From assembly GCF_025685395.1 (NCBI RefSeq), contig NZ_JAGSYA010000004.1:2790001-2854000 (forward strand): a stretch of DNA of 64,000 nt. The letters run 5' to 3'. The stretch is from Terriglobus tenax (GTDB taxonomy: Bacteria > Acidobacteriota > Terriglobia > Terriglobales > Acidobacteriaceae). The notes beneath the pieces are model-generated. The model worked only from the letters and a program-made list of their open reading frames with translations. It did no database searches and was not told where the DNA came from. Below are positions 13,448 to 49,777 of the stretch, one piece after another (the stretch's first letter is position 1; every line of letters begins with the position of its first letter). The translations under genes were made by a program, and so were the position numbers.

Positions 13448-13454
13448 CGGCTGG

Positions 13455-15540: not shown

Positions 15541-15568
15541 CGGCTCACTCTCTTGAGTGAGCCGTTTT
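15541..15568 (+). terminator. Rho-independent terminator of the FAD monooxygenase gene
   Basis: CGGCTCACTC-TCTT-GAGTGAGCCG followed by TTTT: a perfect ten-base stem. It also rules out the GTG at 15557 as the start of the next gene. Confidence 0.9.
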
Positions 15569-15649
15569 GCCCTCGAAGCAGTCTGTTCGTTCTTTGTGTT
15601 TCACGCGATGCTGAGGACAATGCAAGTCCTGTCAAGCGGAGGCATCGCT

Positions 15650-17065
15650 GTGAAGCGGTTCGATACCCAGATCTGTGTGTGGATAGTCCGGTGCATTGTT
15701 GCCGGCTTTATGGCGGTGCTGTGTTCCCGCGGCGCGCTGGCGCAGTATGCGCGTTACCCAACGATCTCCGGTGAGGCGCGTTCGATTGAGACCTCGTCGA
15801 TGCCGCGGTGGGCGATGATGGATTTTTCGCTGCGTTCGAGAACCGAAGGGCAGACGGCTGTGAACCAGGACCGGGATAAGTCTGCGGTGTATGACCTGAC
15901 GCGCGTGCGCGTGGGACTCCGGGTGGAGCCGGCGCAATGGCTGAACCTGTATGTGCAGGCACAGGATGCCCATGCGCTTGGCCTGGCGAAGGAACAGACG
16001 GCAGGCAATATGAAAGACACCTTCGATCTGCGGCAGGCGCTTGTGTCTTTGCGTAGCGGCAGAATGCAGCTGATGGTGGGTCGCCAGCCACTTCGGTTTG
16101 CCGATGAACGGCTTGTGGGTATCAGCGACTGGACGAATGTGAGCCGTACGTTTGATGGCATCGTGTTCCGCACGGAGGGTGATACGCGCCTGACGTTGTT
16201 CAGCTCGTCGGTGGTGAATATCTCGCCGGAGAGCTTTGACCGGTCAGCTGCGGGCCTGCACTTTCATGGCGCGCTGGTATCGATTGACAAGGCTGTTCCG
16301 AAGACGGCGATTGAGCCGTTTGTGTTTGTGAAGACTTTCTCCGGGGTGAAGAGTCCGCTGCAGAAGTCCAGCCAGGAGACGGAGGCGACCTTCGGAGCGT
16401 TTGTCGCGGGGAACCTGCCGGGGCGCTTTTTCTATCGCGTTACGGGAGCGTTGCAGAGAGGCAGCTATGCCGGGCAGAGCATTGATGCAGGCGGCCTGAT
16501 TGTGCGTGCCGGATACACCATGGAAAAGGTGCGATGGAAGCCGGAGTCAAGCCTTGAGTATGACTATGCGACGGGCGATGACGGTTCGGACCCGACGAAA
16601 CGAAAGACTTTTGACCAGCTTTATCCGAGTAACCACAATGCGTTTGGACTGACGGATATTTTTGGCTGGCAGAACATGAAGCAGCGGCGCGTGGGCGTTA
16701 CGGTTGCTCCCAGGAAGGGACTGACGGTCACGGCGGAAGCCGAGTCGCTGCACCTGGCGACGGTGCGCGATGGGGTGTACAGCGGTGGTGGCGGCGTGCT
16801 GGCGGCCCCGGGAACGAAGGGTTTTCTCTCGGATGATCTTGGAACGGGATTTGATGTGTATGCGAAGTACATTACGGGCAACTTCGTGACCAACATTGGC
16901 GTGGGCCATTATTCGCCGGGAGCAGCGGTGAAGGATACGGATGCGGGCGTGCCGCAGACGATTGCGTTTCTCTCGTTTACATATCGCTTCCGGCTGCATA
17001 GCGGCGATAAAGGCATGAAGGCGAACCATCATCATCTGCCGGTGGGCGAGTCAAACGATCGCTAA
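15650..17065 (+). CDS. Alginate-export family outer-membrane porin
   Basis: About 471 residues. The start is taken as GTG 15650 because GGAGG lies seven bases upstream and the product then begins with a clean signal peptide (KRFDTQICVWIVRCIVAGFMAVLCSRGALA, cut before QYARYP). Upstream codons run into the preceding terminator. The mature part is an alternating amphipathic beta barrel with DLTRVRVGLRVEP, YVQAQDAHALG, VGRQPLRFADERLVG and AFGLTDIFGWQNM, typical of the alginate_exp family (AlgE-like). It probably exports or imports an anionic polymer or small solute through the outer membrane. No exopolysaccharide genes are adjacent, so the substrate is unknown. Confidence 0.82.
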   Translation: MKRFDTQICVWIVRCIVAGFMAVLCSRGALAQYARYPTISGEARSIETSSMPRWAMMDFSLRSRTEGQTAVNQDRDKSAVYDLTRVRVGLRVEPAQWLNLYVQAQDAHALGLAKEQTAGNMKDTFDLRQALVSLRSGRMQLMVGRQPLRFADERLVGISDWTNVSRTFDGIVFRTEGDTRLTLFSSSVVNISPESFDRSAAGLHFHGALVSIDKAVPKTAIEPFVFVKTFSGVKSPLQKSSQETEATFGAFVAGNLPGRFFYRVTGALQRGSYAGQSIDAGGLIVRAGYTMEKVRWKPESSLEYDYATGDDGSDPTKRKTFDQLYPSNHNAFGLTDIFGWQNMKQRRVGVTVAPRKGLTVTAEAESLHLATVRDGVYSGGGGVLAAPGTKGFLSDDLGTGFDVYAKYITGNFVTNIGVGHYSPGAAVKDTDAGVPQTIAFLSFTYRFRLHSGDKGMKANHHHLPVGESNDR

Positions 17066-18910: not shown

Positions 18911-20176
18911 ATGAGCGAGCCAACGAACAAGAAAGACAACATGATGTATCCATCACGGAGAAGTTTCCTTGGAGCAGGTTCGGCTGCGATTGCTGCTGCC
19001 GCCATTGCGGCGCTGCCTGCTCATGGCCAGTCTCGCCAGAATGTTGATAAGGCGGAGCATGATCATTCCGTCAGCAACCCGGGGCAGGAGAACCAGAACC
19101 TGCTGGCACAGAACCCGAATTCGAACACGCCTCCGCCGAGCGACTTCGGGGATGTGGGTCCGATCTGGTACTCGTTTGACCTGGTGAAGAAGCGTATCCA
19201 GGAAGGCGGCTGGACGCACCAGGTAACACAGCGTGAGTTCCCGACCTCGACCGAGATTGCCGGCGTGAACATGCGCCTGACGGCCGGCAGCTACCGTGAG
19301 ATGCATTGGCATACCGCCGATGAGTGGGCGTACATGCTGTACGGCAATGCTCGCGTGACAGTGCTGAACCCGGATGGAACGATCTTTATTGACGATGTGA
19401 GCGAAGGCGATCTGTGGGTGTTCCCGGCTGGCTATCCGCACTCGATCCAGGGCCTGGGCCCGGATGGCTGCGAGTTCCTGCTGGTGTTCAACCAGGGCGC
19501 GTTCTCGGAAGACAATACGTTCCTGCTGTCAGAGTGGGTTGCCCATACCCCGACGGACGTTCTGAAGAAGAACTTCGGTCTGCCGGAGAGCGAGCTGCAG
19601 AAGCTGCCGACGGGATCGCTGTACATCTTCCCGAGCGATCTGCCGAAGTCGCTTGCTGAGGACAAGGCGCAGGTGGGTGGACGCAAGGTGGAGTCGACGC
19701 CGCAGTACACCTTCAAGATGCGTTCGATGGAGCCGACGAAGAAGACGGCAGGTGGCGAGGTCCGCGTGGTGGACTCGAGCAACTTCCCGACCTCGAAGCA
19801 CATTGCCGCGGGCCTGGTGATTGTGAAGCCGGGTGCGATGCGTGAGCTGCACTGGCATCCGAATGCCTCAGAGTGGCAGTTCTACATCAAGGGCAAGGCG
19901 CGTATGACGGTGTTCATGCCGGTGGGCAATGCGCGCACCATGGACTACAACGCCAATGACGTGGGCTTTGTGCCAGCGGTAGCCGGACACTATGTCGAGA
20001 ATACGGGCGACACGGACCTGGTCTTCCTGGAGATGTTTGCGACGGACCGCTTCATGGACATCTCGCTGAATAGCTGGATCCGCCGTACGCCGGTGGAGAC
20101 GGTATCTGCCCACCTGAACCTGGATGCGGAAACCATTGCGAAGATTCCTGCGGAGAAGCAGGAGGTTATTCGCTAA
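18911..20176 (+). CDS. oxdC: Oxalate decarboxylase family bicupin, Tat-exported
   Basis: 421 residues. The N-terminus has a Tat motif (SRRSFLGAG, residues 15-23). Two cupin domains follow. The first carries Mn ligands H132, H134, E138 and H177 (HWHTADEW ... PHSIQ), the second H314, H316, E321 and H360 (HWHPNASEW ... GHYVEN). The active-site lid reads SEDNT where B. subtilis OxdC has SENST, so the catalytic Glu (E200) is kept, favouring decarboxylase over oxidase activity. It should convert oxalate to formate and CO2 in the periplasm. A formate dehydrogenase is encoded 20 kb away. The start is supported by AGGGAGA upstream. Confidence 0.93.
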   Translation: MSEPTNKKDNMMYPSRRSFLGAGSAAIAAAAIAALPAHGQSRQNVDKAEHDHSVSNPGQENQNLLAQNPNSNTPPPSDFGDVGPIWYSFDLVKKRIQEGGWTHQVTQREFPTSTEIAGVNMRLTAGSYREMHWHTADEWAYMLYGNARVTVLNPDGTIFIDDVSEGDLWVFPAGYPHSIQGLGPDGCEFLLVFNQGAFSEDNTFLLSEWVAHTPTDVLKKNFGLPESELQKLPTGSLYIFPSDLPKSLAEDKAQVGGRKVESTPQYTFKMRSMEPTKKTAGGEVRVVDSSNFPTSKHIAAGLVIVKPGAMRELHWHPNASEWQFYIKGKARMTVFMPVGNARTMDYNANDVGFVPAVAGHYVENTGDTDLVFLEMFATDRFMDISLNSWIRRTPVETVSAHLNLDAETIAKIPAEKQEVIR

Positions 20177-33790: not shown

Positions 33791-34483
33791 ATGAGCGTGA
33801 TGATGAATCCGGAAGCAGAAACGGATGTGAAGGTGGGGCTTGCCACGCATGCGGCGCTGGCCGCGGCGGGCGGTTACCTGGATGCGTTTACCTATATTGG
33901 GCATGGCCACGTCTTTGCGAATGCGATGACGGGAAACGTCGTGCTGCTGGCCAATGATGTTGTCACACGGGTGTGGGCGGACGCGGCGCGGCACTTCTTT
34001 GTGATCGTGATGTTTCTGTGCGGCATTACGGTGGCCCGGTTGCTGCAGTGCCGGAGTATTGCCTCGGTTGTCCGTGTTCCCGAAGCTGCCGTACTGGTTG
34101 GGGAGATTGCGGTTCTAAGCTGGCTTAGCTTCTCGACCCGTTACGGCGCATCGTTGCGGATTACGATGCTGATTGCCTTTGCGGCGTCGCTGCAGATGGC
34201 GACCTTCCGGCAGGTCAACAAGAAGTCCTACAGCTCCACCTTTACGACCGGCAATCTTCATACGATGCTGCAGAGCCTGCTTTCGTGGGTGCTGGCGGGC
34301 CACTCCGCGGAGGATCTGCGGCAGGCCGGAGACTTTGCGACGATCTGCAGTATGTTCTTTGCTGGCGCGGTGCTTGGGGCCTTTGCAACGCCGCGACTTC
34401 ACAACCATGCGCTGTGGGGCGAGTGCGCCATTCTGCTTGTGGTGTTGGGAAGGGTCTTACAGGTGCGGGCGAAGGCCGCTTAA
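33791..34483 (+). CDS. DUF1275 (YoaK-like) membrane protein
   Basis: About 230 residues, start uncertain among ATGs at 33791, 33800 and 33803. The family signature is clear: AAGGYLDAFTYIGHGHVFANAMTGNVVLLA in the first span and FRQVNKKSYSSTFTTGNLHTML in the middle. Six hydrophobic segments are visible. DUF1275 proteins are small inner-membrane proteins without established function. The gene is a single unit between two terminators. Upstream in-frame codons lie inside the RND terminator. Confidence 0.88.
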   Translation: MSVMMNPEAETDVKVGLATHAALAAAGGYLDAFTYIGHGHVFANAMTGNVVLLANDVVTRVWADAARHFFVIVMFLCGITVARLLQCRSIASVVRVPEAAVLVGEIAVLSWLSFSTRYGASLRITMLIAFAASLQMATFRQVNKKSYSSTFTTGNLHTMLQSLLSWVLAGHSAEDLRQAGDFATICSMFFAGAVLGAFATPRLHNHALWGECAILLVVLGRVLQVRAKAA

Positions 34484-34490
34484 CGTGCAA

Positions 34491-34518
34491 GGCCGCATCC
34501 CTGGATAAGGATGCGGCC
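34491..34518. terminator. Hairpin between convergent DUF1275 and cydB genes
   Basis: GGCCGCATCC-CTGGATAA-GGATGCGGCC: a perfect ten-base stem eight bases after the DUF1275 stop and ten bases after the cydB stop. No T-run is present on either side. Confidence 0.7.
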
Positions 34519-34527
34519 GCGAGCTGG

Positions 34528-35562
34528 TTAGAGTGCGTGCGAGATGGTGGAGACCGACTTCGGAGAAGATGACCGGAAGATGCGGAAGAGGAAGATCATG
34601 GAAGGGACCAGCAGGAACAAGCCGCAGACGGCTACAGCCAGGATGGTCCAGAGGATGTTGTCGGGCGCGGCGCTCTGCTGGATGGTCATTTGCCCCGGGC
34701 CGGCCATGCCGGGATACTGCGAGAGTGCCCAGCCCCAGATAATCAGCGCTGTCTGCAGAATGACGCAGACCTGAGCCAGGCGGTAACGGCGTTTCCACAG
34801 GGCGGTGAAGGCGCAGATGGAGGCGATGGCCGTAAAGATCTGCTCATACCGTGCCCACCAGTTATGCGTCAGACCGTGAAAGACATCTGGCGCGCCGTGA
34901 ATGGAGAGCAGGAAGGTGAGCGCCGCGAAGAAACCGACGGAAGCTCCGGCGATGAGAGCGCGGTTGCGGAAGGCCTCCTGCAGTTGCGGGTTGGAGCTTT
35001 CCTGCGTGAGGTAGACCGCGGCGAGATACGCGAAGATGGATGCCGTGAAGAGACCGGTGACGACGGTGAACGGTGTAAGCCACTGCAGGGTTGCACCGTT
35101 GTAGTTGCTTGCGGTCATGATGGAAGTGACCGAGCCCTGTGCGACGGCTCCGATGACAATGCCCAGACAGATGGGCGTAAGCAGGCTGGCGATGGAGAAG
35201 ATGCGGGCAAAGAGCAGCTGCATGCTACGGCTTTGCGTGAAGTAGGCACGGAAGACAAAGGCCGCGCCGCGGAACAGGATGCCTGCCAGGCAAAGGAAGA
35301 TCGGGATGAAGAGCGCCGACATGATGGCGGCGAAGACCTTTGGAAAGCCGGAGAAGAGAAGAACAATCGCAAAGATGAGCCAGATGTGGTTGGTTTCCCA
35401 GACGGGCGTGATGGTGTCATCGATGAGAGACAACTGGGCTTCGCGTGTTTTTCCGGAGGCGGTGAACTCCAGCATGCCGGCGCCGTAATCGGCGCCTCCC
35501 AGCAACGCGTAGATCGTAACAACGGTGACGATGGCTCCTGCGAGCAGAATGCTAGGCTGCAT
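34528..35562 (-). CDS. cydB: Cytochrome bd ubiquinol oxidase subunit II
   Basis: 344 residues from ATG 35562 (MQPSILLAGAIVTVVTIYALLGGADYGAGMLEF). Eight or nine spans can be traced. The quasi-conserved parts ADYGAGM, TITPVWETNHIWLIFAIVLLFSGFP and the C-terminal IFLFRIF fit the CydB fold that packs against subunit I. The start overlaps the subunit I gene by 11 bp, showing translational coupling. It is the last gene of the formate dehydrogenase-bd oxidase operon. Confidence 0.93.
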   Translation of the reverse strand: MQPSILLAGAIVTVVTIYALLGGADYGAGMLEFTASGKTREAQLSLIDDTITPVWETNHIWLIFAIVLLFSGFPKVFAAIMSALFIPIFLCLAGILFRGAAFVFRAYFTQSRSMQLLFARIFSIASLLTPICLGIVIGAVAQGSVTSIMTASNYNGATLQWLTPFTVVTGLFTASIFAYLAAVYLTQESSNPQLQEAFRNRALIAGASVGFFAALTFLLSIHGAPDVFHGLTHNWWARYEQIFTAIASICAFTALWKRRYRLAQVCVILQTALIIWGWALSQYPGMAGPGQMTIQQSAAPDNILWTILAVAVCGLFLLVPSMIFLFRIFRSSSPKSVSTISHAL

Positions 35563-36895
35563 GGACGGCTCCTTCTTCCTCAATGGTTTCCAGTTCTTCA
35601 AGCGTGGGCGTGCGGATGACGTGTCCTGCCATGAGCCAGACGACGACCAGGCCGAGGACCGCGTAGAGCACATTCATGCTGTAGAACAGGCGTCCCAGGT
35701 GCGTGGTGGATGTGACGGCATCGCGGGTGAGCAGAATGCCCTGGATGATCCACGGCTGACGGCCAAGTTCGGTGACCATCCAACCGCTTTCGAGTGCGAC
35801 GAAGCCAAGTGGGGCAATGGCGACCAGAAGCCAGAGGGCGCGCCGGTCGGTAATGAACTGTTTGTCTTTCCATGCGCCCCAGCCGGCGATGAGCGCGACA
35901 AAGGTGAGAAGAGAGCCGCAGCCCACCATGATCTGAAAGCTGATGTGGACCAGAAGGACGTTTGGCCAGTGCTCACGCGGGAAGCTATCCAGGCCCTGAA
36001 TGGTGGCGTGTGGCTTGTGGAAAGCGAGAAGGCTGAGGCCGTCGGGAATTTCAAGAGCGTACTTTGTGGTGTGCGCGTTCTCGTCCGGGATGCCGCCAAT
36101 ACGAAGCGGTGCGCCGGTTTCGGTTTTGAATTGCCCTTCCAGGCTGGCGAGCTTGGTGGGCTGCTTCTGCGCTACCATGCGGGCCAGCGCGTCTCCGCTG
36201 ACAAACTGCAGCAGGCAGGCGACGGCGCCGACGGTGAAGGCGATCTTGATGGCGCTTTCATGGAAGCGGTTGCGGCCGGTGCGCAGCAGCATGATGGCGT
36301 GAATGCCCGCCGTGGCAAAGCCGGTAGCGCAATAGGCCGCCAGGCCCATGTGGATTCCTTCCGGAAGCCCGGCGGGGTTGAGCATGGCCTGCAGCGGATG
36401 AATGTCGACGAACTGGCCGTTCTCGATACGGAAGCCGGTGGGGGTGTTCATCCATCCATTCACGAAGGTGACGAAGATGGCCGAAGCAAGTCCGCTGATG
36501 GAAACGACGAGGCCGGAGAGAAGGTGGACACGCGGGCTTACACGGTTCCATCCATAGAGGTAGATGCCGAGGAAGATCGCCTCGGTGAAGAAGGCGAAGC
36601 CCTCCATGGAGAACGGCATACCGATCACATCGCCGGCGGCGGCCATGAAGCGTGGCCACAGCAGACCTAGTTCAAAGGAGAGGACCGTGCCGGTGAGTGC
36701 GCCAATCACGAAGAGGATGGCTGTGCCCTTGGCCCAGCGCTTCGCGATGAGAAGGTACTCGGAGTTACCGGTGCGCTGCCAGAGATACTCCGCGATCACC
36801 ATCATGAGCGGAAGAGCGACGCCCATGGCCGCAAAGATGATGTGGAATGCCAGAGATGCTGCCATCTGAGAGCGTGCTGCGATGAAGTCGTTCAC
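35552..36895 (-). CDS. cydA: Cytochrome bd ubiquinol oxidase subunit I, short-Q-loop type
   Basis: 447 residues. GTG start at 36895 with GGAGG six bases upstream. H18 (AFHIIFA) is the heme b595 ligand; the MEGFAFFTEAIFLGIYLYGW segment holds the proton-channel glutamates; GWMVTELGRQPW (371-382) is the conserved quinol-site motif. The Q-loop is short compared with E. coli CydA, as in CIO-type oxidases. It oxidises quinol and reduces oxygen to water, with high oxygen affinity. Its position in one operon with formate dehydrogenase genes is unusual and suggests a shared electron flow. Confidence 0.94.
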   Translation of the reverse strand: MNDFIAARSQMAASLAFHIIFAAMGVALPLMMVIAEYLWQRTGNSEYLLIAKRWAKGTAILFVIGALTGTVLSFELGLLWPRFMAAAGDVIGMPFSMEGFAFFTEAIFLGIYLYGWNRVSPRVHLLSGLVVSISGLASAIFVTFVNGWMNTPTGFRIENGQFVDIHPLQAMLNPAGLPEGIHMGLAAYCATGFATAGIHAIMLLRTGRNRFHESAIKIAFTVGAVACLLQFVSGDALARMVAQKQPTKLASLEGQFKTETGAPLRIGGIPDENAHTTKYALEIPDGLSLLAFHKPHATIQGLDSFPREHWPNVLLVHISFQIMVGCGSLLTFVALIAGWGAWKDKQFITDRRALWLLVAIAPLGFVALESGWMVTELGRQPWIIQGILLTRDAVTSTTHLGRLFYSMNVLYAVLGLVVVWLMAGHVIRTPTLEELETIEEEGAVHAA

Positions 36896-36934
36896 GTCGC
36901 CTCCGAGGAGAAGAGATTTGCCGCGGCTGAGCCG

Positions 36935-37315
36935 TTAGCAGGTAAGGTTTGGGTTGGGGAACATGTCCGCGTTGTCGGCGTCACTTTTGTCGAGGCAGGC
37001 GAAGTCCTTTTCGACGGTGATGGTGAGGAGTTGATCGCCGTAGACGGGGAAAGCGCCGTACATGCCGACCAGCTCGCCGTCGGCCCACTTGCGTACTTCG
37101 TGACTGGGAATCAGGACACGGATCTCATCGCCGATGTGGGAGACCTCAAACTTCGTGACCTGTTCGGTGTGCTCAATTGCATAGGACAAGCGGTCCCACG
37201 GGTCTGTGGGGCTGAGAGAGAGAGACTCTTCGACTCGTCCGGTCTCGTGCAGCTTCGCAACCTCGGGTTTGCTGAGGCGTAGCCGGATGGAGTTGCCTAG
37301 AATGCGAAGTTTCAT
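36935..37315 (-). CDS. Unknown protein in the formate dehydrogenase operon
   Basis: 126 residues, MKLRILGNSIRLRLSKPEVAKLHETGRVEES... The first 30 residues form a small beta-alpha unit, and the last residues (PNPNLTC) end with a Cys. The start ATGA overlaps the fdhD stop by 4 bp, so it is translationally coupled. Short proteins with this opening (ILGNSIRLRL) are known to me as uncharacterised neighbours of fdhD in some genomes. No metal or Fe-S motif is visible. A role in maturation or assembly of the formate dehydrogenase is a guess from context. Confidence 0.8.
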   Translation of the reverse strand: MKLRILGNSIRLRLSKPEVAKLHETGRVEESLSLSPTDPWDRLSYAIEHTEQVTKFEVSHIGDEIRVLIPSHEVRKWADGELVGMYGAFPVYGDQLLTITVEKDFACLDKSDADNADMFPNPNLTC

Positions 37316-38211
37316 GCCACTGTCTCCTTTTCAAAATGCGTGATGCGCGAGGCACCGTGGTAGATGTTGAAGCGTGTTGACTTGAGAAAGCCCACCAGCG
37401 TGATGTCAAACTGCCGCGCAACATCGACGGCAAGACTGGAAGGGGCACCGAGCGCAACGACCATGGGAATGCCGGCCATGACAGACTTCTGCAACAGTTC
37501 AAAGCTGGCACGGCCGGAAAGAAACAGCAGCGAATCGCGGAGCGGCAGCGCGTCAGAGAGGAGAGCGTTGCCGAAGAGCTTGTCGACCGCATTGTGCCGG
37601 CCTACATCTTCGCGAACGGCGAGGAGTTGGCCCGAGCTTGAAACCAGTCCTGCGGCATGAAGTCCGCCGGTGCGCGAGAAGATTTGCTGTCGGTCCTCCA
37701 GAATGTGGGTCAGGCTGTACAGCGTCTCCGAAGCGATGTGGAAGTTATTTGCCGCGCGTGGCGGAGCCTGAACCCGCAGTGCCATCAGAGATGCCTTGCC
37801 GCACACACCGCAGCTTGAGGTGGTGTAGAAGTTACGCTCCAGCGTGAGATCGGGTACGGTGAGGTCTGGCCGCAGCTTCAGCGTGATCGTGCTGCGTCGC
37901 TGGAGCTCATTGGCTGCCGGTCCGCTCGCGTGGAGCAGATCCTCTGCGTTCTCCAGGTCGTCGAAGTCGTGAATCACGCCTTCGGAAAGAAGAAAGCCAG
38001 CGGCCAGTTCGGCATCGTTGCCCGGGGTGCGCATGGTTACCGAGATGGATTTGGTGCGGCGGTCATGCTGCGGCCCGTGCTCAAGCTGGATCTCCAGAGG
38101 CTCTTCCACCGCGAGCTCATCGTCTGTGCTGACCGCGTGTCCGTCACTGACACGGAGAATGGAAGAGGTCCTGGATGCTTCGAGAAGCGTACATACAAGA
38201 TCGTCGCTCAT
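37312..38211 (-). CDS. fdhD: Formate dehydrogenase sulfurtransferase FdhD
   Basis: 299 residues. The CxxC active site is C134/C137 in TTSSCGVCGKASL. The AAGFLLSEGVI, GGLHAAGLVS and REDVGRHNAVDKLFG blocks bind bis-MGD in the family. FdhD transfers sulfur from a cysteine desulfurase to the molybdenum cofactor before its insertion into formate dehydrogenase. It lies 18 bp after the DUF1641 gene and overlaps the next gene, consistent with a maturation role in the operon. Confidence 0.96.
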   Translation of the reverse strand: MSDDLVCTLLEASRTSSILRVSDGHAVSTDDELAVEEPLEIQLEHGPQHDRRTKSISVTMRTPGNDAELAAGFLLSEGVIHDFDDLENAEDLLHASGPAANELQRRSTITLKLRPDLTVPDLTLERNFYTTSSCGVCGKASLMALRVQAPPRAANNFHIASETLYSLTHILEDRQQIFSRTGGLHAAGLVSSSGQLLAVREDVGRHNAVDKLFGNALLSDALPLRDSLLFLSGRASFELLQKSVMAGIPMVVALGAPSSLAVDVARQFDITLVGFLKSTRFNIYHGASRITHFEKETVA

Positions 38212-38229
38212 GGCATTCGCTGTGCTCTC

Positions 38230-38685
38230 TTAATCGTGTTTGGTGGTGCCGGATGCGTTCATGGAGTCTCCGACGGCCTGCATGAGGCCGAGGCCGAGGC
38301 CCATGACCTGGCGGGTTTCCGGGCGGAAGAGCTGGCGGATGATCCTGAACCACGACGGCGGAGACTTCCGGGTGCTGGCCACGATCTCATGCACCTGGTT
38401 GGCGTCGAGAGAGGTGAGGATGTCGCCGAAGATCAGGCCGAGGCGCATGGCTGCGATCGCCGGCTTTGAACTGACAACGTCGGTGAGCTTGCCTATGACG
38501 GTTTCACCGGCATTGAAAGCTCCATTGGCTGCCGCGATCACGCCGGTTTTATGCAGATTCTGCAGAAGCTCGTAGGCTTCCAGAATTGCTTCGGCGTGCT
38601 CGTGCGGGGCCGCTTCAATACGGCGGATGAGGTCGGCCCTGCTGTCTTCGGGCGTAAATCTGCGGAACTCGACTGCCTTTGCCAT
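38230..38685 (-). CDS. DUF1641 protein, partner of YjgC/YrhE-type formate dehydrogenase
   Basis: 151 residues from ATG 38685, which shares one base with the stop of the formate dehydrogenase gene (TAATG). The sequence (AHAEAILEAYELLQNLHKTGVIAAANGAF, then GLIFGDILTSLDANQ) matches DUF1641, found next to formate-dehydrogenase-like genes in Bacillus (YjgD, YrhD). It is helical, without cofactor motifs, and is required as a partner in some systems. A membrane span is not evident. The role here is inferred from gene order. Confidence 0.88.
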   Translation of the reverse strand: MAKAVEFRRFTPEDSRADLIRRIEAAPHEHAEAILEAYELLQNLHKTGVIAAANGAFNAGETVIGKLTDVVSSKPAIAAMRLGLIFGDILTSLDANQVHEIVASTRKSPPSWFRIIRQLFRPETRQVMGLGLGLMQAVGDSMNASGTTKHD

Positions 38686-41600
38686 TAGCGTTTCCTCGGA
38701 GCGTTGTAATAAGGATTCTCGGTGATCTGCACCAGCTTGGGTTCGCCGGGGAAGTGATAGTCCTTGCGCTTCCACTTGCGCTCCACCTCAACGCCCATCT
38801 GCGGTGTGCGCTTGCCGCTGACGCGGAAGTTCATGGATGGCAGCGGGCTGTTGCCGCGCTCCGGCAGAATATCCATGCGTACGGCGGTTTCCTTGTACGC
38901 GGGGGTAAAGGTGGCTGAGTCGGTATGCGATCCGGTGAGGATGTTCAGCGGGCCTTCCTGCGAGGTGAGCGGCATGAAGACCTGCTTGCCCTGCACGCGA
39001 CCGGTAACCAGAACCTTTGCCTTGAGCGAGCCGTAGCGGCTGGTGAGACGTACCCACTGGCCGGACTCGATCCCGCGGTCGGCGGCGAGCTCGGGCGAGA
39101 TTTCGACATAGCGTTCCGGGTTCTCTTCGTGAATGCCGGGGACGCGGTGCGTCATGTTGCCTTCGTGGAAGTGCTCAAGCTGGCGACCGTTGTTCAGCAG
39201 CAGGTCGAAGCTTGCATCCGGTGACTCCGCTGGCTGGCGGTATTCCAGCGGATAAAGGCGGGCCTTGCCATCCGGGAAAGCGAAGCTGTCGAGGTAGAGC
39301 ACAGGCTCGTCCTTGCCATCGGGATGCACCGGCCACTGCAGCGTATTCCAGCCTTCCAGGCGATCGTAGGTAACACCGGCATAGATGGGCGAGAGGGATG
39401 CGAGCTCGGCCATGATCTCTGACGGGTGCGTGTAGTTCCAGTCGGCACCCATCTTCTTTGCCAGTGCCTGGGTGATCTTCCAGTCGGCGAGGCTGTCGCC
39501 GAGTTCCGGCAGCGCCTGATGGAAGCGCTGGATACGGCGCTCAGTGTTGGTGAAGGTGCCGTCCTTTTCAAGGGCCGGTGCGGCAGGGAAGATGACGTCG
39601 GCGTAGCGGCAGGTTTCGGAGAAGAAGATGTCCTGCACGACGAAGAGATCCAGCTTCTCGAAGGCTCCGGCGATGCGGTTTGCGTTGGAGTCGGCAGAGA
39701 TCATGTCTTCGCCGGCGAGATACAGGGCACGCATCTTGCCTTCGTAGATTGCTTCCACCATCTGGTGGTTGTTCATGCCCGCGTGATGTGGAAGCGTGGT
39801 GTTCCAGGCCTGTTCGTATTGGGTGCGAACAGTTTCATCCAGCACGCTCTGATAGCCGGGGAAGTTGGTGGGCGAGGCGCCAATGTCGCCCGCGCCCTGC
39901 ACGTTGTTGTGGCCGCGCAAAGGGAAGGCTCCGCAGTGCGGGCGGCCGTAGTTGCCGGTGATGAGTAACAGGTTGGAGATGGCGGTAGAGCTATCCGACC
40001 CCATGACATGCTGCGTGATGCCCATGGCCCACAGGATGCACATGGTCTCGGCTTTGACGATCTCTTCCGCAACCTGGTGCAGCGTTTCCAGTGGAACCTC
40101 GCATGTCTGCGACGCGAACTCCATGGTGAAGGGTTCCAGGCTCTTGCGATACTCTTCCAGGCCGTTGACGCGGTCGCGCAGGAAGTCCGTCTTGGCGTAG
40201 CCGTTGTCGATCGCATAGCGGCTCATGGCCGAGAGCCAGACCAGGTCCGTACCGGGCTTGGGGCGGAAGAAGATGTTGGCGCGCTCGGCAATCTCATGTT
40301 TGCGCAGGTCGGCGACGATGATCTTCTGCCCGTGGAACTTATGCGCGCGCTTGATGCGGGTGGAAAGTACAGGGTGCGACTCGGTGGTGTTGCTGCCGAC
40401 GATCAGCACCAGCTTTGACTTGCCGATGTCTTCAATGCCACCGGCATCGCCCGCCAGACCCACAGTGCGGAACAGGCCTTCAGTCGCTGGGGACTGGCAG
40501 TACCGCGAGCAGTTGTCGATGTTGTGCGTTCCGATGACGGTGCGTGCGAACTTCTGCATCAGGAAGCCGTCTTCGTTGCTGGTCTTCGAGGAGATGATGA
40601 CACCGATGGAGTCCGGACCGGATTCCTGCTTGATGGAGGACAGGCGCGAGGAGACGTAGTTGAGAGCTTCCTCCCAGGAGACTTCGCGGAAGCTGTCGCC
40701 TTCGCGGATCAGCGGCTTCTGCAGGCGATCCTTATGGTTGACGAAGTCCCAGCCGAACTTGCCCTTCACACAGGTGGAGATCTGGTTGGCTGCGCCGTGC
40801 AGGGGAACGATCTTCAGGATCTCGCGGTCCTTGGTCCATACGTCGTAGCTGCAACCGACGCCGCAGTAGGTGCAGACGGTCTTGGTTTTCTTGACGCGCT
40901 CTTCGCGCATCTTGGACTCAACCTGCGAGACCTGCATGATGGCGCCGTAGCCCATCTCCGGCTCCAGGTTCTTGACTACGTCAATCATCTTGTTGAGCGA
41001 GTCATGCGGAATTCCGCTCAGGTAGCCGGCTTCGCCGAGCATGTTCTTTTCCATCAGCGCATTGCAGGGGCAGACGGTAACGCAGTGTCCGCAGGAGACG
41101 CAGCTGGAACCGGCGATCTGCTCGCCGCCGTCCCACAGCACACGCGGATGCTCGCGCTCCCAGTCGATGGTCAGGGTCTCATTCACCTGCACGGTCTGGC
41201 AGGCCTGCACGCACTGTCCGCACAGGATGCACTGGCTGGGGTCGTAGCGGTAGAAGGGGTTGGACATGTCCACTTCATACGGCTTGGGCTTGAAGGGATG
41301 AACCTGGTGGCGGACATTGAGTTCCAGCGCGGTGTTATGCACGCGGCAGTTCTCGTTGTTGTTATCGCACACGGTGCAGTAGAGCATGTGGTTGCCGAGG
41401 ATGGTGTCGAAGGCTTCGGCGCGCGCCTGTTCCGCCTGCGGAGAGTTGGTGACGACGCGCAGACCGGCTTTTACTTTTTGACCGCAGGAGCGAACGATCT
41501 TGCCGTCGACTTCCACCAGGCAGGTATCGCAGCTCTGAATGGGGCCCATCAGGGGCGAGTGGTAGCAGATGTGGGGAATCTCGGTGTTGCGCAGGATCGC

Positions 41601-41687
41601 TTCCACGAGAAGTTCGCCGGCCTGGGCTTCAACAGGCTTGTCATTGAGCACAATCTGTACGTTCGACGGAGTTTGCTGATCATCCAT
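38685..41687 (-). CDS. fdhF: Formate dehydrogenase catalytic subunit, molybdopterin type with N-terminal Fe-S arm
   Basis: 1000 residues from ATG 41687. The N-terminal arm resembles NuoG: a 2Fe-2S domain (C41, C53, C56, C68), a His/Cys cluster region (H100, C104, C107), and two 4Fe-4S ferredoxin motifs (C153-C163 and C196-C206). The catalytic part has its own 4Fe-4S site (C272, C275, C279, C306) and bis-MGD binding. The Mo-ligand is C397 in NCSRYCQSP, and the residue after it is Gln, where classical formate dehydrogenases have His. It belongs to the YjgC/YrhE lineage. Electron acceptor subunits are not encoded next to it. Confidence 0.92.
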   Translation of the reverse strand: MDDQQTPSNVQIVLNDKPVEAQAGELLVEAILRNTEIPHICYHSPLMGPIQSCDTCLVEVDGKIVRSCGQKVKAGLRVVTNSPQAEQARAEAFDTILGNHMLYCTVCDNNNENCRVHNTALELNVRHQVHPFKPKPYEVDMSNPFYRYDPSQCILCGQCVQACQTVQVNETLTIDWEREHPRVLWDGGEQIAGSSCVSCGHCVTVCPCNALMEKNMLGEAGYLSGIPHDSLNKMIDVVKNLEPEMGYGAIMQVSQVESKMREERVKKTKTVCTYCGVGCSYDVWTKDREILKIVPLHGAANQISTCVKGKFGWDFVNHKDRLQKPLIREGDSFREVSWEEALNYVSSRLSSIKQESGPDSIGVIISSKTSNEDGFLMQKFARTVIGTHNIDNCSRYCQSPATEGLFRTVGLAGDAGGIEDIGKSKLVLIVGSNTTESHPVLSTRIKRAHKFHGQKIIVADLRKHEIAERANIFFRPKPGTDLVWLSAMSRYAIDNGYAKTDFLRDRVNGLEEYRKSLEPFTMEFASQTCEVPLETLHQVAEEIVKAETMCILWAMGITQHVMGSDSSTAISNLLLITGNYGRPHCGAFPLRGHNNVQGAGDIGASPTNFPGYQSVLDETVRTQYEQAWNTTLPHHAGMNNHQMVEAIYEGKMRALYLAGEDMISADSNANRIAGAFEKLDLFVVQDIFFSETCRYADVIFPAAPALEKDGTFTNTERRIQRFHQALPELGDSLADWKITQALAKKMGADWNYTHPSEIMAELASLSPIYAGVTYDRLEGWNTLQWPVHPDGKDEPVLYLDSFAFPDGKARLYPLEYRQPAESPDASFDLLLNNGRQLEHFHEGNMTHRVPGIHEENPERYVEISPELAADRGIESGQWVRLTSRYGSLKAKVLVTGRVQGKQVFMPLTSQEGPLNILTGSHTDSATFTPAYKETAVRMDILPERGNSPLPSMNFRVSGKRTPQMGVEVERKWKRKDYHFPGEPKLVQITENPYYNAPRKR

Positions 41688-41780
41688 GGGGCGGATACCT
41701 CTTCTGCGGAGTCGCCTGTATCGGGCCAGGCGCTGCTTTGCGCTTTCATATCCAAAGTAGGGTTGTACGCGGAAATCCTC

Positions 41781-41820
41781 GACCCCGCTGCGGGGGAAAA
41801 GGCACCCCCTCATTCGGGTG
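41781..41820. promoter_or_regulatory. Two C/G dyads upstream of the formate dehydrogenase operon
   Basis: GACCCCGCTGCGGGGG (41781-41796) and CACCCCCTCATTCGGGTG (41803-41820) lie 95-135 bp upstream of the first gene of the operon. Both are inverted repeats like those at other promoters here. Confidence 0.35.
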
Positions 41821-41899
41821 ACTGGAGAGCCGGAGATTCTTTTGAGAAAGAAAGTGCAGGGCGCATGGGCGCCTCTCCCAGGGCTGCCGATAGAAGCAG

Positions 41900-42922
41900 C
41901 TAGCTGGTACGGTTCAGGCGGCGGTAGAAGGTGCTGCGATGAATACCAAGTTTGCGCGCCGCCGCGGAGATATTGCCATTCTCCGCTTCCACGGCACGGC
42001 GCAGGGCTTCGTCTTTCAGGTCTTCCAGGTTTTCCGGGCCGGTGTGCGCCGTTTCTGTTGCCGCAATGCGGGCCGAGGCGGTGCAGGCTTTGCCGACATC
42101 CGCATAGAAAATACCCGGCGTGTGGTACGGGCGCAGCTCCTGCTGGCCGTACATAGGACGGTGCTGGAAGATCTCAGACCAGTGCAGCGCGTGAATGGAC
42201 GCGGGTGACAGCCCAAGGTAGGCAAGGGCGCGCGTGCTTGCGCCGGTCAGCAGACCGTCTTCAAAGGTGAGGATGCCTTCTTCGGGGGTATTAAGCCAGG
42301 AAGGATGCGGGTGGAAGCGGACCAGGAGGTCCGTCGCAATTTCCGCCACCCAATCATGCTCAATATGGGCGACGGCATGCCGGACCAGACGGCCCGGGGA
42401 GTGGATGCTTTCGCAGGCGTGGTTGGAGATGTCGAGCACGCCGGCCAGGTGCCCGGTGGGCGCCATGATGGGCATGGCGTTGCAGGCCAGGAAGCGGTTT
42501 TCGTCGAAGAAATGCTGCTGACCAAGCACCTGGACGAACCGGCGCTCGACGATGGCGGTACCGATGGCGTTGGTCCCGGTGATCTGTTCGCGCCAGTTGG
42601 CGCCAGGCATCAGGGAGACGCGGCGGGCTCGTCCGAGGAAGGCGTTGTCGCCTTGCGAATCAAGGATAATTCCTGTGGAATCAGCCAGTAACAGGATGCG
42701 GCCGGTGCTTGCGAGGGTGTGTTCCAGGATGCGCATCTCGCGCAGGGCAAGGCGGCGAAGCTGGTGGTGGCGGTCCTGCTGCAGGTGGAGTTCGGAGTCG
42801 GTGAGCGGGTTCTGGTTTACATGCCAGTGGGGCGACATGCCGTAGTGACGGCAGCGATGCCACGAGGCCTGGATGATCTCCGGGAGGGGGTGCCGAAGGC
42901 TGATCGAATTCGCCTGCTGCAT
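41900..42922 (-). CDS. AcoR-like regulator: GAF sensor and Fis HTH, no AAA+ domain
   Basis: 340 residues. The N-terminal region (IIQASWHRCRHYGMSPHW, then GAF domain to about 200: LMPGANWREQITGTNAIGTAIVERRFVQVLG and FLACNAMPIMAPTGHLAGVLDIS) is the same as in AcoR/AcxR activators. The Fis-type HTH (about 305-338, NISAAARKLGIHRSTFYRRLN) is at the end. The AAA+ ATPase that normally lies between them, with GAFTGA, is missing, and the linker of about 100 residues has no Walker motif. It cannot itself activate sigma-54 polymerase. It is divergent from the aldehyde/alcohol dehydrogenase operon, which it most likely controls. Confidence 0.88.
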   Translation of the reverse strand: MQQANSISLRHPLPEIIQASWHRCRHYGMSPHWHVNQNPLTDSELHLQQDRHHQLRRLALREMRILEHTLASTGRILLLADSTGIILDSQGDNAFLGRARRVSLMPGANWREQITGTNAIGTAIVERRFVQVLGQQHFFDENRFLACNAMPIMAPTGHLAGVLDISNHACESIHSPGRLVRHAVAHIEHDWVAEIATDLLVRFHPHPSWLNTPEEGILTFEDGLLTGASTRALAYLGLSPASIHALHWSEIFQHRPMYGQQELRPYHTPGIFYADVGKACTASARIAATETAHTGPENLEDLKDEALRRAVEAENGNISAAARKLGIHRSTFYRRLNRTS

Positions 42923-43018
42923 AAAGACTCCGCTGACTGTAGACGATGAGCCCGCGTGGGTGGTCTACGAAGAGGAGATTACTCCCCAAATCGAGCGATG
43001 TCGACGTCTGTTGCAAGT

Positions 43019-43041
43019 TGCGACAGTGCGACATATGTCGC
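43019..43041. promoter_or_regulatory. Operator-like repeats between the AcoR-like regulator and the aldehyde dehydrogenase gene
   Basis: TGCGACA occurs at 43019-43025 and 43027-43033, and the second copy forms a perfect 14-base palindrome GCGACATATGTCGC (43028-43041). This is the only strong dyad in the divergent gap. It is the best candidate binding site of the Fis-type regulator. Confidence 0.5.
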
Positions 43042-43129
43042 CTTGGCAACGGTTATTCCGGGGGAGCAGGATTTGCCGTGAACAGGGAAGCTCCTGCCCG
43101 TGACCGGGAGCAGAAAAGGAAGAAACACA

Positions 43130-44665
43130 GTGGCCACCTCACCTTCTATTCAGCTTGACCCCATGCACTATGGACATCCCGTCCCGTTTCGGAAACGCTA
43201 TGGCAATTACATCGGCGGAGAGTGGGTTGAGCCCGTCTCCGGCCAGTATTTTGAAAACATTACGCCGGTGACCGGCAAGGTTCTGTGCGAAGTTCCGCGC
43301 TCGGGAGCGGCGGACATCGAGAAGGCGCTGGATGCGGCGCACAAGGCGAAGAAGGCCTGGGCGAAGACCTCGGTGACCGAGCGCTCGAACATTCTGATCA
43401 AGATTGCGCAGCGCATTGAAGATAATGTGGAGCTGCTGGCCGCGGCCGAGACCTGGGACAACGGCAAGCCCATCCGCGAGACCACCGCTGCTGATGTCCC
43501 GCTGAGCGCAGACCACTTCCGCTACTTTGCAGGCGCGATTCGCGCACAGCAGGGCGGCATCTCCGAGATTGACCATGACACGGTGGCCTATCACTACCAT
43601 GAGCCGCTGGGTGTCGTAGGCCAGATCATTCCGTGGAACTTCCCGCTGTTGATGGCGGCCTGGAAGCTGGCTCCGGCGCTGGCCGCGGGCAACTGCATTG
43701 TGCTGAAGCCCGCGGAGCAGACGCCGGTCTCGATCCTGATGTTGATGGAGATTGTGGGCGACCTGCTGCCGGCGGGTGTGCTGAACGTGGTCAACGGCTT
43801 TGGCCGCGAGGTGGGCAAGGAACTTGCCACCAACCCGCGCATCAATAAGATCGCGTTTACGGGCTCTACCGTCACCGGCCGCATGATCATGCAATACGCG
43901 TCGGAGAATATCATTCCGATGACGCTGGAGCTTGGCGGCAAGTCGCCGAACATCTTCTTCCAGGATGTGATGAGCGAGGACGATGAGTATGTGGACAAGG
44001 CCCTGGAGGGCCTTGCGTTGTTTGCGTTCAACCAGGGAGAGGTTTGTACCTGCCCGTCGCGCGCTCTGATTCACGAGTCGATCTATGACAAGTTCATGGA
44101 GCGTGCTCTGGCGCGGGTGAAGGCCATCAAGCAGGCCAACCCGCTGGATATGGATACGATGATTGGCGCGCAGGCGTCAAAGCAGCAGTTTGAAAAGATC
44201 GTGTCGTACCTGGACCTGGGCCGCAAAGAAGGTGCGGAGCTTCTGATTGGCGGCGATGCCGCGAAGATGGAAGGCGACCTTGCGGGCGGCTTCTACATTC
44301 AGCCGACGATCTTCAAGGGCCATAACAAGATGCGCATCTTCCAGGAAGAGATCTTCGGGCCGGTGCTGGCGGTGACCACCTTCAAGACGGACGACGAAGC
44401 CCTGGAGATTGCCAACGACACGCTGTATGGCCTGGGCGCTGGCGTGTGGACACGCGATATGAACCGTGCCTACCGCTTTGGCCGCGGCATTGAAGCCGGC
44501 CGCGTGTGGACCAACTGCTACCATATGTATCCCGCGCACGCTGCCTTTGGCGGATACAAGCAGAGCGGCATTGGCCGCGAGAACCACCTGATGATGCTGG
44601 ACCACTACCAGCAGACGAAGAACCAGCTGGTCAGTTACAGCACGAAGAAGCTGGGGCTGTTCTAA
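43130..44665 (+). CDS. NAD-dependent aldehyde dehydrogenase (acetaldehyde/AcoD-ExaC type)
   Basis: About 511 residues from GTG 43130 (GGAAG upstream). Motifs in order: [21 protein letters not shown] (NAD binding), [17 protein letters not shown] with the general-base Glu, [12 protein letters not shown] with the nucleophile Cys, and EIFGPVLAV. The C-terminus [23 protein letters not shown] fits the type that oxidises acetaldehyde and related short aldehydes to acids. It is followed without gap by the DUF779 gene and then by an alcohol dehydrogenase, an ethanol oxidation unit. Confidence 0.95.
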
Positions 44666-45043
44666 ATGACAAACCTGCCTGAGCAGGTAGTTGCAACACC
44701 GGCGGCCTTGAGTTTGATAGATGAGCTTAAGGCCGCGCACGGCCCGCTGATGTTTTACCAGTCCGGCGGGTGCTGCGAAGGCAGCGCGCCAATGTGCTTC
44801 CCGGAAGGGGAGTTCCGCATTGGCAGCCGTGATGTGAAGGTGGGAGAGATTGGTGGCTCTCCGTTTTATATTTCGCCGCAACAGTTTGAGTACTGGAAAC
44901 ATACCCAACTGATCATTGACGTTATTCCGGGGTTCGGCGCGGCATTCTCGCTGGAAGGCCCGGGAGGACTGCAGTTCCTTACACGATCGCGTGTATTTAC
45001 TGACGACGAAATTCGTGCGCTCCGGGATGCCGGTCGCATTTAG
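44666..45043 (+). CDS. DUF779 protein
   Basis: 125 residues starting at ATG 44666, directly after the aldehyde dehydrogenase stop. The family signature [21 protein letters not shown] has a Cys-rich loop (C-C-x6-C) that may bind a metal. The middle [24 protein letters not shown] is conserved in the family. DUF779 proteins are usually encoded beside aldehyde and alcohol dehydrogenases. The function is not established; a redox or metal-carrier role is inference. Confidence 0.93.
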
Positions 45044-45063
45044 CAAGGAAAGGTGGAACGACT

Positions 45064-46098
45064 GTGTCGAAGACGATGAAAGCTGCCGTGGTACGTGAGT
45101 TTGGAAAGCCACTGGTGATTGAAGAAGTGCCGGTTCCCGAGGTTGGGCCCGGGCAGGCATTGATGAAGGTGATCTCCACCGGTGTGTGTCATACGGACCT
45201 GCACGCTGCGGAAGGCGACTGGCCAGTGAAGCCGAGCCCGCCGTTTATCCCCGGTCATGAAGGTGTTGGTTACGTGGTTGCCGTGGGCGACGGCGTGAAG
45301 ACGGTGAAGGAAGGCGACCGCATTGGCGTGCCGTGGCTATACAGCGCATGCGGCAGCTGCGAGTTCTGCCTGAGCGGATGGGAGACGCTGTGCAAACAGC
45401 AGAAGAACGCCGGTTATTCGGTGGATGGAAGCTTCGCGGAGTATGTGCTGGTAGATCCGAACTACGTCGGCCATATTCCGGACAACCTGGAGTTCACGCC
45501 GGTGGCGCCGATTCTGTGTGCGGGCGTGACGGTGTACAAGGGGCTGAAAGAGACCGAGGCGCGTCCGGGGCAGTGGGTTGCCATTTCGGGCATTGGCGGC
45601 CTGGGGCACCTGGCCGTGCAGTATGCCAAGGCGATGGGGCTGCATGTGGTTGCCATCGACATTGCGCAGGAGAAGCTGGACCTGGCGAAGAAGCTGGGCG
45701 CGGAGGCGGCGGTCAACGGACTGGACGCCGATGCAGTCGACCAGGTGATGAAGATTACCGGTGGCGGAGCGCATGGTGTGCTGGTGACGGCGGTTTCGCC
45801 AAAGGCATTTGCGCTGGCGGAGAACCTGTTGCGCCGCAAGGGCATTATGTCGCTGTGCGGTCTGCCGCCGGGAGATTTTCCGGTGTCGATCTTTGACCTG
45901 GTGCTGAATCGCAAGACGCTGCGCGGATCGATTGTGGGCACGCGTGTAGATCTGGCCGAGTGCCTGAGCTTTGCCGCCGAAGGCAAGGTGAAGGTGACCT
46001 ACAAGACGGCGGCCCTGGAAGACATCAACTCCATCTTCGACCAGATGAAGGCGGGCAAGATCGATGGCCGCATTGTGATGGAGCTGGCGAAGCCGTAA
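45064..46098 (+). CDS. adhP: Zinc-dependent alcohol dehydrogenase AdhP
   Basis: 344 residues, GTG start at 45064. Catalytic zinc ligands are in [15 protein letters not shown] (Cys), PGHEGVG (His) and a later Cys ([10 protein letters not shown]). Structural zinc Cys are in [20 protein letters not shown] is bound at [18 protein letters not shown]. Strings VPWLYSACG and [27 protein letters not shown] are typical of AdhP. It interconverts ethanol and acetaldehyde, feeding the aldehyde dehydrogenase encoded upstream. A terminator follows. Confidence 0.96.
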
Positions 46099-46165: not shown

Positions 46166-46765
46166 TTAAACGCGCAAAAGTAAGGTAATGGCGTCTTCGG
46201 CGTCTTTGATGGCTTTTGGCTTGCTGAGCCCGTAGGCGCGGGGATGTGCGATGAGCAGGGCGGCGGTCCCGTGCAGGCAGGTAAGCACCTGACGCATGCG
46301 CATGTTGGAGGTCGAGACAGGGGTATCGTCGGGAAGCACTTTGCGGATGAGAGCGTGAATTGCCTGTAAAAACTGTTCGCCCAGTTGCTCGCGTTCGGCG
46401 ATGACCCCCTCATCCGAGTGACGGATCAGGAAGACTAATGAGTAATGGTCAGGATAGGTGACGGCGAAGTTTAATAAGGCGGTGACGAAAATACGGATCT
46501 GCTCCCAGGCTTCACTGGCAGCTTCCATCTGTCGAAACATCTTGCTGGTGAAATCGGTGTACAGTTGGGCGCACAGATGCTGGGTGAGCGCCTCCTTGTT
46601 GGCAAAGTGCCGGTAGGCCGCCATCTGGGAGCAACCGGCAACCTGGGCTACGTGACGCATGGAGAGGTGGTCGTAACCCTCTTCGACAAAGATCCTGCCG
46701 GCGGCATCGATGATGCGCTGGCGAAGACCGGGGGATTCGAGTTCCGTCGGTTTCCGGGGCGACAT
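46166..46765 (-). CDS. TetR family transcriptional regulator
   Basis: 199 residues from ATG 46765 (MSPRKPTELESPGLRQRIIDAAGRIFVEEGYDHLSMRHVAQVAGCSQMAAYRHFANKEAL, here cited in part as GYDHLSMRHVAQVAG and QMAAYRHFANKEAL). The HTH is clear; the C-terminal ligand domain (FAVTYPDHYSLVFLIRHSD) is of TetR_C type. It is divergent from the efflux operon to the right, and its start codon faces a 38-base dyad that is the likely operator. It probably represses the pump genes and itself until a ligand is bound. Confidence 0.94.
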   Translation of the reverse strand: MSPRKPTELESPGLRQRIIDAAGRIFVEEGYDHLSMRHVAQVAGCSQMAAYRHFANKEALTQHLCAQLYTDFTSKMFRQMEAASEAWEQIRIFVTALLNFAVTYPDHYSLVFLIRHSDEGVIAEREQLGEQFLQAIHALIRKVLPDDTPVSTSNMRMRQVLTCLHGTAALLIAHPRAYGLSKPKAIKDAEDAITLLLRV

Positions 46766-46788
46766 GAAATTAACTCTAGCAGTTTTAT

Positions 46789-48556: not shown

Positions 48557-48576
48557 AGGCAAGGGATCAGAAACCA

Positions 48577-49773: not shown

Positions 49774-49777
49774 GCCC

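Follow-up and report, generated by a model that had tools for sequence, protein, structure and literature searches.

A Terriglobus tenax operon that joins a ForCE-type formate dehydrogenase to cytochrome bd and probably links formate to oxygen through menaquinone

In the DNA analysed here – a 64,000-nucleotide window of the Terriglobus tenax genome (NZ_JAGSYA010000004.1, positions 2,790,001 to 2,854,000) – six genes occupy positions 34528-41687, all on the minus strand and with no gap larger than 39 bp, packed just as the original prediction had described them (Table 1). The TAA of forC and the ATG of forE have base 38685 in common, 18 bp separate forE from fdhD, and fdhD overlaps the DUF7009 gene by 4 bp; the 39-bp gap lies between the DUF7009 gene and cydA, whose GTG start is preceded by a GGAGG box, and cydA overlaps cydB by 11 bp. 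The cydB stop is followed by a strong hairpin (-26.2 kcal/mol, z -5.07, equalled by 0 of 200 shuffles); it lacks a U run, and the scan for terminators did not call it. A single sigma-70-like site was found in 34300-43200, inside cydA, against 1.8 expected by chance. Judged from this layout, the six genes are presumably co-transcribed. Their GC content (0.575-0.608, against 0.585 for the window) gives no compositional signal of foreign DNA.

Table 1. Genes and other features of the window, with the profile matches that identify them.
Feature	Position	Strand	Description
cydB	34528..35562	-	Cytochrome bd subunit II; PF02322 E 7e-63, profile 4-302 of 302
cydA	35552..36895	-	Cytochrome bd quinol oxidase subunit I; PF01654 469.6 bits
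DUF7009 gene	36935..37315	-	PF22668 E 3.3e-34; invariant pair of cysteines towards the C-terminal end
fdhD	37312..38211	-	Sulfurtransferase, formate dehydrogenase (FDH) maturation; PF02634 E 2.1e-63; NF001943 284.1 bits
forE	38230..38685	-	Small DUF1641/ForE-family partner; putative menaquinone-linking subunit by orthology
forC	38685..41687	-	Mo/W-bisPGD formate dehydrogenase, catalytic subunit, N-terminal Fe-S domain
Hairpin	34480..34530	-	Directly 3' of cydB; candidate transcript end
Oxalate decarboxylase-family bicupin	18911..20176	+	Outside the operon; TIGR03404 510.3 bits, cut-off 254.2
Porin, Alginate_exp family	15557..17065	+	Outside the operon; PF13372 E 2.1e-48

The dehydrogenase is, by its sequence, a ForC ortholog: it scores 805.6 bits against TIGR01591 (FDH alpha) and 1373.6 bits against B. 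subtilis YjgC/ForC1 (9gzq), its top solved match by far. Profiles recognise Fer2_4, NADH-G_4Fe-4S_3 and Fer4 domains, residues 1-330 contain 20 cysteines, and an N-terminal extension places 2Fe-2S and 4Fe-4S sites on the ForC polypeptide itself. The active-site motif CQ/RGH – here RYCQSPA at residue 395 and LRGHNN at 590 – is kept in all 95 of the ForC sequences compared. The forE product, originally labelled DUF1641, has no match to that Pfam family, even at E 10; its membership comes by way of relatives (PF07849 is matched by 16 of the 40 homologs aligned) and through the solved ForE1 (8rqz_A, E 8.4e-9). ForE homologs in relatives come directly after forC. The predicted ForE model (mean pLDDT 60.6) is too poor for a structure search.

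The same pair is found in B. subtilis as ForCE1 and ForCE2 (YjgCD, YrhED; PDB 8rqz/8rr0/9gzq), which share with the window enzyme the N-terminal Fe-S domain and CQ/RGH motif of the catalytic subunit and an adjoining small ForE, with neither a cytochrome b nor an NAD subunit. The available part of PMC8808070 reports formate:menaquinone oxidoreductase activity for B. subtilis ForCE; the formate-to-quinol step that had been proposed through DUF1641 is thus supported by ForCE orthology, but its chemistry is not new, since it has already been published. The same part of that paper places fdhD far from both for loci, whose operons are forC-forE, whereas the window operon includes fdhD. E. coli FDH-N (FdnGHI) likewise couples formate oxidation to menaquinone, but there the catalytic, Fe-S and transmembrane cytochrome parts are subunits of their own (PMC8808070, available part), in contrast to the single Fe-S-rich catalytic polypeptide plus ForE of the window. 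An FdnGHI-type cytochrome b and separate Fe-S subunit are absent from the six genes and two neighbours, as are the NAD-reducing subunits of Fds-type NAD-linked enzymes (R. capsulatus, C. necator), whose FdsA resembles ForC. The six operon genes therefore lack a cytochrome b and an NAD-reducing subunit, as first predicted. An NAD- or ferredoxin-linked dehydrogenase was considered and rejected, because the operon holds no such subunit and the best solved match is ForC. A second ForC is encoded in the window genome, with no oxidase adjoining it.

FdhD would mature ForCE, and the product of the fourth gene – of unknown kind in the original prediction and now assigned to DUF7009 (PF22668, 118.1 bits, cut-off 27) – probably assists. 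The protein has a conserved EKDFACLD...C, and DUF7009 genes adjoin fdhD in many relatives and are also found near other molybdopterin oxidoreductases, a context that makes it a probable molybdoenzyme accessory factor. A role as electron carrier was rejected, since gene context points to maturation instead. Fold searches gave their best hits among unrelated proteins (Foldseek E 1.3e-3, VIA-align Z 4.3). A small uncharacterised family thereby becomes a candidate for molybdoenzyme maturation.

CydA and CydB are both full-length, and this CydA is the sole one in its genome. Its nearest solved chains are 9r2g (a bd menaquinol oxidase) and 5doq (Geobacillus), with which it shares haem ligands, the quinol-loop K/E and GRQPW; H18, H182, K248, E253, M323 and E376 align with identical residues of 5doq, and we take these to be the haem-ligand and quinol-loop positions. 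Unlike those systems, the window cydAB sits inside a formate dehydrogenase operon. The genome also encodes two futalosine-pathway (menaquinone) proteins and three haem-copper oxidase subunit I genes; as these three oxidases draw on the same quinone pool, a formate path need not be exclusive.

The reading that we favour, and regard as probable, is that formate – partly from oxalate – feeds electrons through ForCE to menaquinol and on, via the quinone pool, to cytochrome bd and O2. ForCE would oxidise formate to CO2, with electrons running through its Fe-S clusters to reduce menaquinone at the ForC-ForE interface; co-expressed CydAB would re-oxidise the menaquinol, turning O2 into water and generating a proton-motive force, with the menaquinone pool coupling the two enzymes. 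This electron flow from ForCE through menaquinone to bd we infer from the sequences. Co-transcription would fix the ForCE:CydAB ratio and may allow formate to be burned at low oxygen. If this reading is true, the operon is a natural two-enzyme formate oxidase.

That the genes are merely co-expressed – bd mainly removing O2 or answering the same stress, and so protecting the Mo/Fe-S enzyme, while ForCE electrons exit through any quinol oxidase – seems unlikely. It would suit a pool common to three haem-copper oxidases, and also the sibling genome G409, in which forC-forE-fdhD-DUF7009 is present and no CydA match was found, so that ForCE can function without bd. Yet the product of ForCE is exactly the substrate of bd, and the presence of two divergent CydA kinds beside ForCE, in several orders, is in keeping with a requirement for a quinol oxidase.

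Altogether, six species, Edaphobacter modestus among them, have cydAB adjoining forCE; the pairs follow three gene orders, their CydAs are of two divergent kinds, and two further forCE copies retain a decayed cydA remnant. Only four of the six pairings are complete on the available DNA, because in the other two, near contig ends, cydB of L050 ends early (profile 1-212 of 302, 46 bases from the contig end) and cydA of L066 is truncated by the contig end. On a ForC tree of 34 rows, the fewest changes are four for linkage and six for arrangement. The CydA tree (31 rows, built without L164) carries a long-branch warning for L050, L066, L160 and L161, and the placement of L050 and L066 is unsure. 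The contigs carrying G609 and L050 are equal in size (77,636), and the two were tallied once; the contigs of L046/L170 and of L048/L169 are also equal in size. No earlier report linking ForCE to cytochrome bd was found among the titles and abstracts of the open-licence PMC papers listed, and the available parts of PMC13397495, PMC3750248 and PMC4378227 do not describe the pairing. Of the "new respiratory arrangement" first proposed, the ForCE half is known; for its pairing with bd, recurrent in other lineages, we could find no report, so that the parts are known and their combination looks new. Recurrence in several bacteria and in varied orders suggests a dedicated burning of formate with oxygen.

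A physical ForCE-CydAB complex, channelling menaquinol from the ForE site straight to CydA, would account for the tight linkage and overlapping genes, and membrane contact has been proposed for ForCE (PMC8808070 and PMC13397495, in the parts available). We nevertheless consider it very improbable: the partner CydAs diverge widely (31-33% as against 48-65% identity to the window CydA), which disfavours a single conserved ForCE-CydA interface, and Bacillus ForCE functions without a linked bd. No cydA hit was seen in the available flanks of 30 Bacillota ForC-clade loci.

Still less credible is a functionally meaningless linkage, arising by chance or by hitch-hiking on a mobile segment. In its favour, a scan of 14 further ForC-bearing genomes from the same genus found CydA in none, and on the ForC tree the window sequence clusters with a MAG, not with its genus-mate G409; the segment therefore looks imported, and the absence of CydA from those 14 scanned genomes makes import of the operon, or of its cydAB, probable. 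The cydA remnants show that the segment also decays. Against it, the pairing recurs with different orders and different cydAB. Three of 80 named ForC loci picked by ForC alone carry a same-strand cydA no more than 2 kb from forC, while an idealised estimate – in which each 4000-gene genome has one cydAB and the loci are independent – expects 0.02 cases of direct same-strand adjacency and 0.2 within 5 kb, and puts the chance of three same-strand adjacent cases at about 1e-6. Most ForC loci nevertheless lack a nearby cydA, which counts against the reading that we favour: in 76 of the 80, the available flanks contain neither a cydA copy nor a remnant. A scan of 163 ForC-bearing genomes for CydA found at least four with CydA no further than 5 kb from a forC on the list; these linkage counts are lower bounds, since the family census scored two ForC candidates per genome and listed part of the ForC places, and many genomes are fragmented. 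The second ForC of the window genome, which no oxidase adjoins, the incomplete cydB of L050 and the two decayed copies also count against the favoured reading.

We know of no settled physiological role for ForCE. Its place beside a terminal oxidase, with OxdC often near ForCE, gives it a testable one: aerobic formate/oxalate respiration in Acidobacteriota. The window's oxalate decarboxylase-family protein, which has a twin-arginine-like start (PSRRSFLG), is a candidate formate source, and would supply at least some formate from oxalate; that it is encoded 14 kb from the operon, on the opposite strand, counts against the favoured reading. The early suggestion of an oxalate origin, at least in part, gains support from oxalate decarboxylase homologs in the 10-kb flanks of forC at 6 of the 80 loci; the flanks contain an OFA-type MFS transporter at 24. 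As in known OxdC clusters, the OxdC bicupin lies near an OFA-type transporter in relatives, which differ from those clusters in joining OxdC to a respiratory formate dehydrogenase, to which L145 adds cydAB. A fuller oxalate-to-oxygen module – OxdC, OFA-type formate uptake, ForCE and a swapped, divergent bd partner, with DUF7009 as a new molybdoenzyme maturation factor – is a tentative extension that we hold to be possible, if somewhat doubtful. Oxalate decarboxylase, porin and OFA-type transporter recur beside forCE in other genomes, in support of the oxalate idea, and the window porin is homologous to the one that Edaphobacter/Granulicella encode next to oxdC and forCE (42.6% to that of L044).

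The original prediction that a formate dehydrogenase and cytochrome bd share a six-gene operon is borne out by the gene order and by the junctions, which are overlaps of 1, 4 and 11 bases or gaps of 18 and 39 bp; a strong hairpin lies 3' of cydB. The 1000-residue ForC is matched by Bacillus subtilis ForC1 over residues 12–982 with 1373 bits (the next-listed enzyme reaches 610). It has the CQ and RGH residues that mark the subfamily according to PMC8808070 and that occur in all 95 ForC sequences compared. The 151-residue ForE has no match in a Pfam search even at E 10 but matches the solved ForE1 (E 8.4e-9), and 16 of the 40 aligned ForE homologues – from 69 extracted – match DUF1641. According to PMC8808070, ForCE can reduce menadione, is purified together with menaquinone-7 and stabilises a menasemiquinone, and ForC on its own no longer shows the menadione activity; Acidobacteria are named there among the CQ/RGH sequences, with synteny to DUF1641 genes mentioned. 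According to a 2026 review (PMC13397495), ForCE forms a hetero-octamer whose interface contains lipids.

The operon's CydA, the only copy in the genome, is full length, and its closest solved chains are 9r2g, a bd menaquinol oxidase, and 5doq, from the Geobacillus bd. Its H18, H182, K248, E253, M323 and E376 – which we take to be haem ligands and quinol-loop residues – align, as counted by hand, with 5doq positions 21, 186, 252, 257, 325 and 378. The oxidation of menaquinol and the reduction of oxygen are known activities of the CydAB family, and two proteins of the futalosine (menaquinone) pathway are encoded in the genome. Formate would thus be oxidised at ForC and its electrons passed, with ForE, to menaquinone, as demonstrated in Bacillus; CydAB would oxidise the resulting menaquinol and reduce oxygen, the two enzymes being coupled through the menaquinone pool. 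An electron path leading exclusively from formate to cytochrome bd is disfavoured by the three other oxidases in the genome, which has three COX1. The predicted route to quinol through the DUF1641 partner thus appears, from ForCE orthology, right in kind, though not new: the ForCE part is already known, and what our literature searches did not meet is any report of its recurrent union with cytochrome bd, or of the neighbouring oxalate genes.

Features and gene orders at the loci discussed (L, loci of relatives)
Locus	Feature	Coordinates	Strand	Remarks
Window	Porin	15557–17065		same family as the porin of L044, L045, L046 and L048; 43% identical to that of L044
Window	Oxalate decarboxylase-family bicupin	18911–20176		510 bits vs cut-off 254
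Window	Six-gene operon	41687 down to 34528	minus	forC-forE-fdhD-DUF7009-cydA-cydB
Window	Regulator: DhaR-like N-terminal region, Fis-type helix-turn-helix	41900–42922	minus	212 bp upstream of operon
Window	Regulator and divergent ExaC-type acetaldehyde dehydrogenase, DUF779, AdhP-type alcohol dehydrogenase genes	41900–46098
Window	Outer-membrane efflux protein, HlyD, FUSC/MdtO-like genes	46710–51598
L127	Second ForC of the window's genome	G000:C4:870248-873202		own forE
L050 (unclassified MAG)	forC-forE-cydA-cydB			CydA 31% identical to window's
L137	forC-forE-cydA-cydB			CydA 33%; cydB 348 aa
L073 (Edaphobacter modestus)	cydA-cydB-forC-forE			CydA 63%
L073	MoaA C-terminus-like fragment between cydB and forC (by eye)	9223–9576
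L164	cydA-cydB-forC-forE			CydA 65%
L066 (MAG titled Verrucomicrobiota)	cydA-cydB-forC-forE			CydA 48%; cydA cut by contig end
L088 (E. modestus)	Decayed copy	12322–13773
L141	Decayed copy	8348–12131

The pairing recurs, though in a minority of ForC loci. Among 80 named ForC loci picked by ForC alone (records of the window's own genome were possibly left out), three (L050, L066, L073) have a same-strand cydA no more than 2 kb from forC; in L088 only a truncated cydA is left after forE, and in the remaining 76 cydA is absent from the flanks examined. A separate scan of 163 ForC-bearing genomes (69 + 80 + 14; 162 of the window's family) gave a CydA match of any kind, fragments counted, in 90; in at least four, a listed forC has a full-length cydA no farther than 5 kb away: the window's own, G411, G499 and G609 (taken as the same record as L050). 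G411 has an additional cydA remnant, and in G372 cydAB is divergent from fdhD-DUF7009, 11 kb from forC. The pairing thus occurs in at least six species and is complete in four – the window's, E. modestus (L073), G499 (L164) and G411 (L137) – being cut in L066, while in L050 cydB is incomplete, ending 46 bases ahead of the contig end. In the decayed copies of two species (L088, L141) forC is split over two frames and forE is open, directly followed by just the first ~65 residues of CydA, 68–69% identical to the window's.

The strongest argument for a functional pairing is that different kinds of oxidase stand beside the same enzyme. In a 31-row CydA tree, from which L164 is absent, L137 and L050 are separate from the window, L073 and L066, although L050 and L066 are long branches of unsure placement. 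That such widely different CydA serve beside ForCE also speaks against a fixed ForCE–CydAB supercomplex. In a ForC tree of 34 rows, of which 27 have at least 69% identity and seven are outgroups, linkage or its remnant in eight rows requires at fewest four changes, and arrangement six; an earlier 95-row tree, built before G499, had seven such rows, with three and five. These changes can be losses as well as gains.

CydA was found in none of 14 other ForC-bearing genomes scanned in the genus (4 + 10), and the sibling G409 has forC-forE-fdhD-DUF7009 without cydAB. The window's ForC joins L050 (100/99), not G409, in the 34-row tree. The simplest reading is that the operon was imported, or cydAB captured, in this species; base composition gave nothing pointing to a foreign origin of the operon. 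The second ForC is 72% identical to the operon's, and neither fdhD nor cydA was matched in its 20-kb stretch.

The oxalate decarboxylase gene, proposed originally as a formate supply, has counterparts in the flanks of 6 of the 80 ForC loci (L044, L045, L046, L048, L063, L077), and additionally in L138, L168 and L172. L145 holds OxdC, cydAB and fdhD-DUF7009 together, with forE 9 kb further, and L177 has OxdC near a cydA 68% identical to the window's, with no ForC match in the stretch. In L044, L045, L046 and L048, forE-forC runs in one direction and fdhD-DUF7009-porin in the opposite one, the porin being followed, in either order, by oxdC and an OFA-type transporter. OFA/monocarboxylate-type MFS carriers flank 24 of the 80 loci, eight of which belong to the Bacillota clade. 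The best NCBIfam model for the OFA-type carrier is an L-lactate transporter, above cut-off, and the oxalate/formate antiport models fall below theirs; oxalate and formate are accordingly candidate substrates only.

DUF7009 adjoins fdhD in many clusters (e.g. L044–L046, L048, L049, L073, L128, L136, L140, L164) and is present in L137 and L172 with no fdhD match. Eight aligned homologues share an invariant EKDFACLD block and one C-terminal cysteine; comparison of the predicted fold (pLDDT 80.6) found no convincing relative, and a literature search no paper. Around DUF7009 genes of other Acidobacteriota, 7 of 14 stretches contain a molybdopterin oxidoreductase match (22–31% identity to ForC), some of nitrate-reductase type by eye. 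DUF7009 may work alongside FdhD in inserting or sulfurating the cofactor. Also by eye, the recurring neighbours of DUF7009 in L029–L041, from other Acidobacteriota, include a di-iron protein resembling RIC, regulators of the CRP/Dnr type and molybdopterin oxidoreductases.

Upstream, the Fis-type regulator may well belong to the divergent aldehyde/alcohol dehydrogenase genes. Homologues of the window's efflux protein and HlyD lie near cydAB or forCE-cydAB in L050, L129, L137, L177 and L178, and FUSC/MdtO-like homologues in L129, L137 and L177, these recurring neighbours hinting at a weak-acid stress context.
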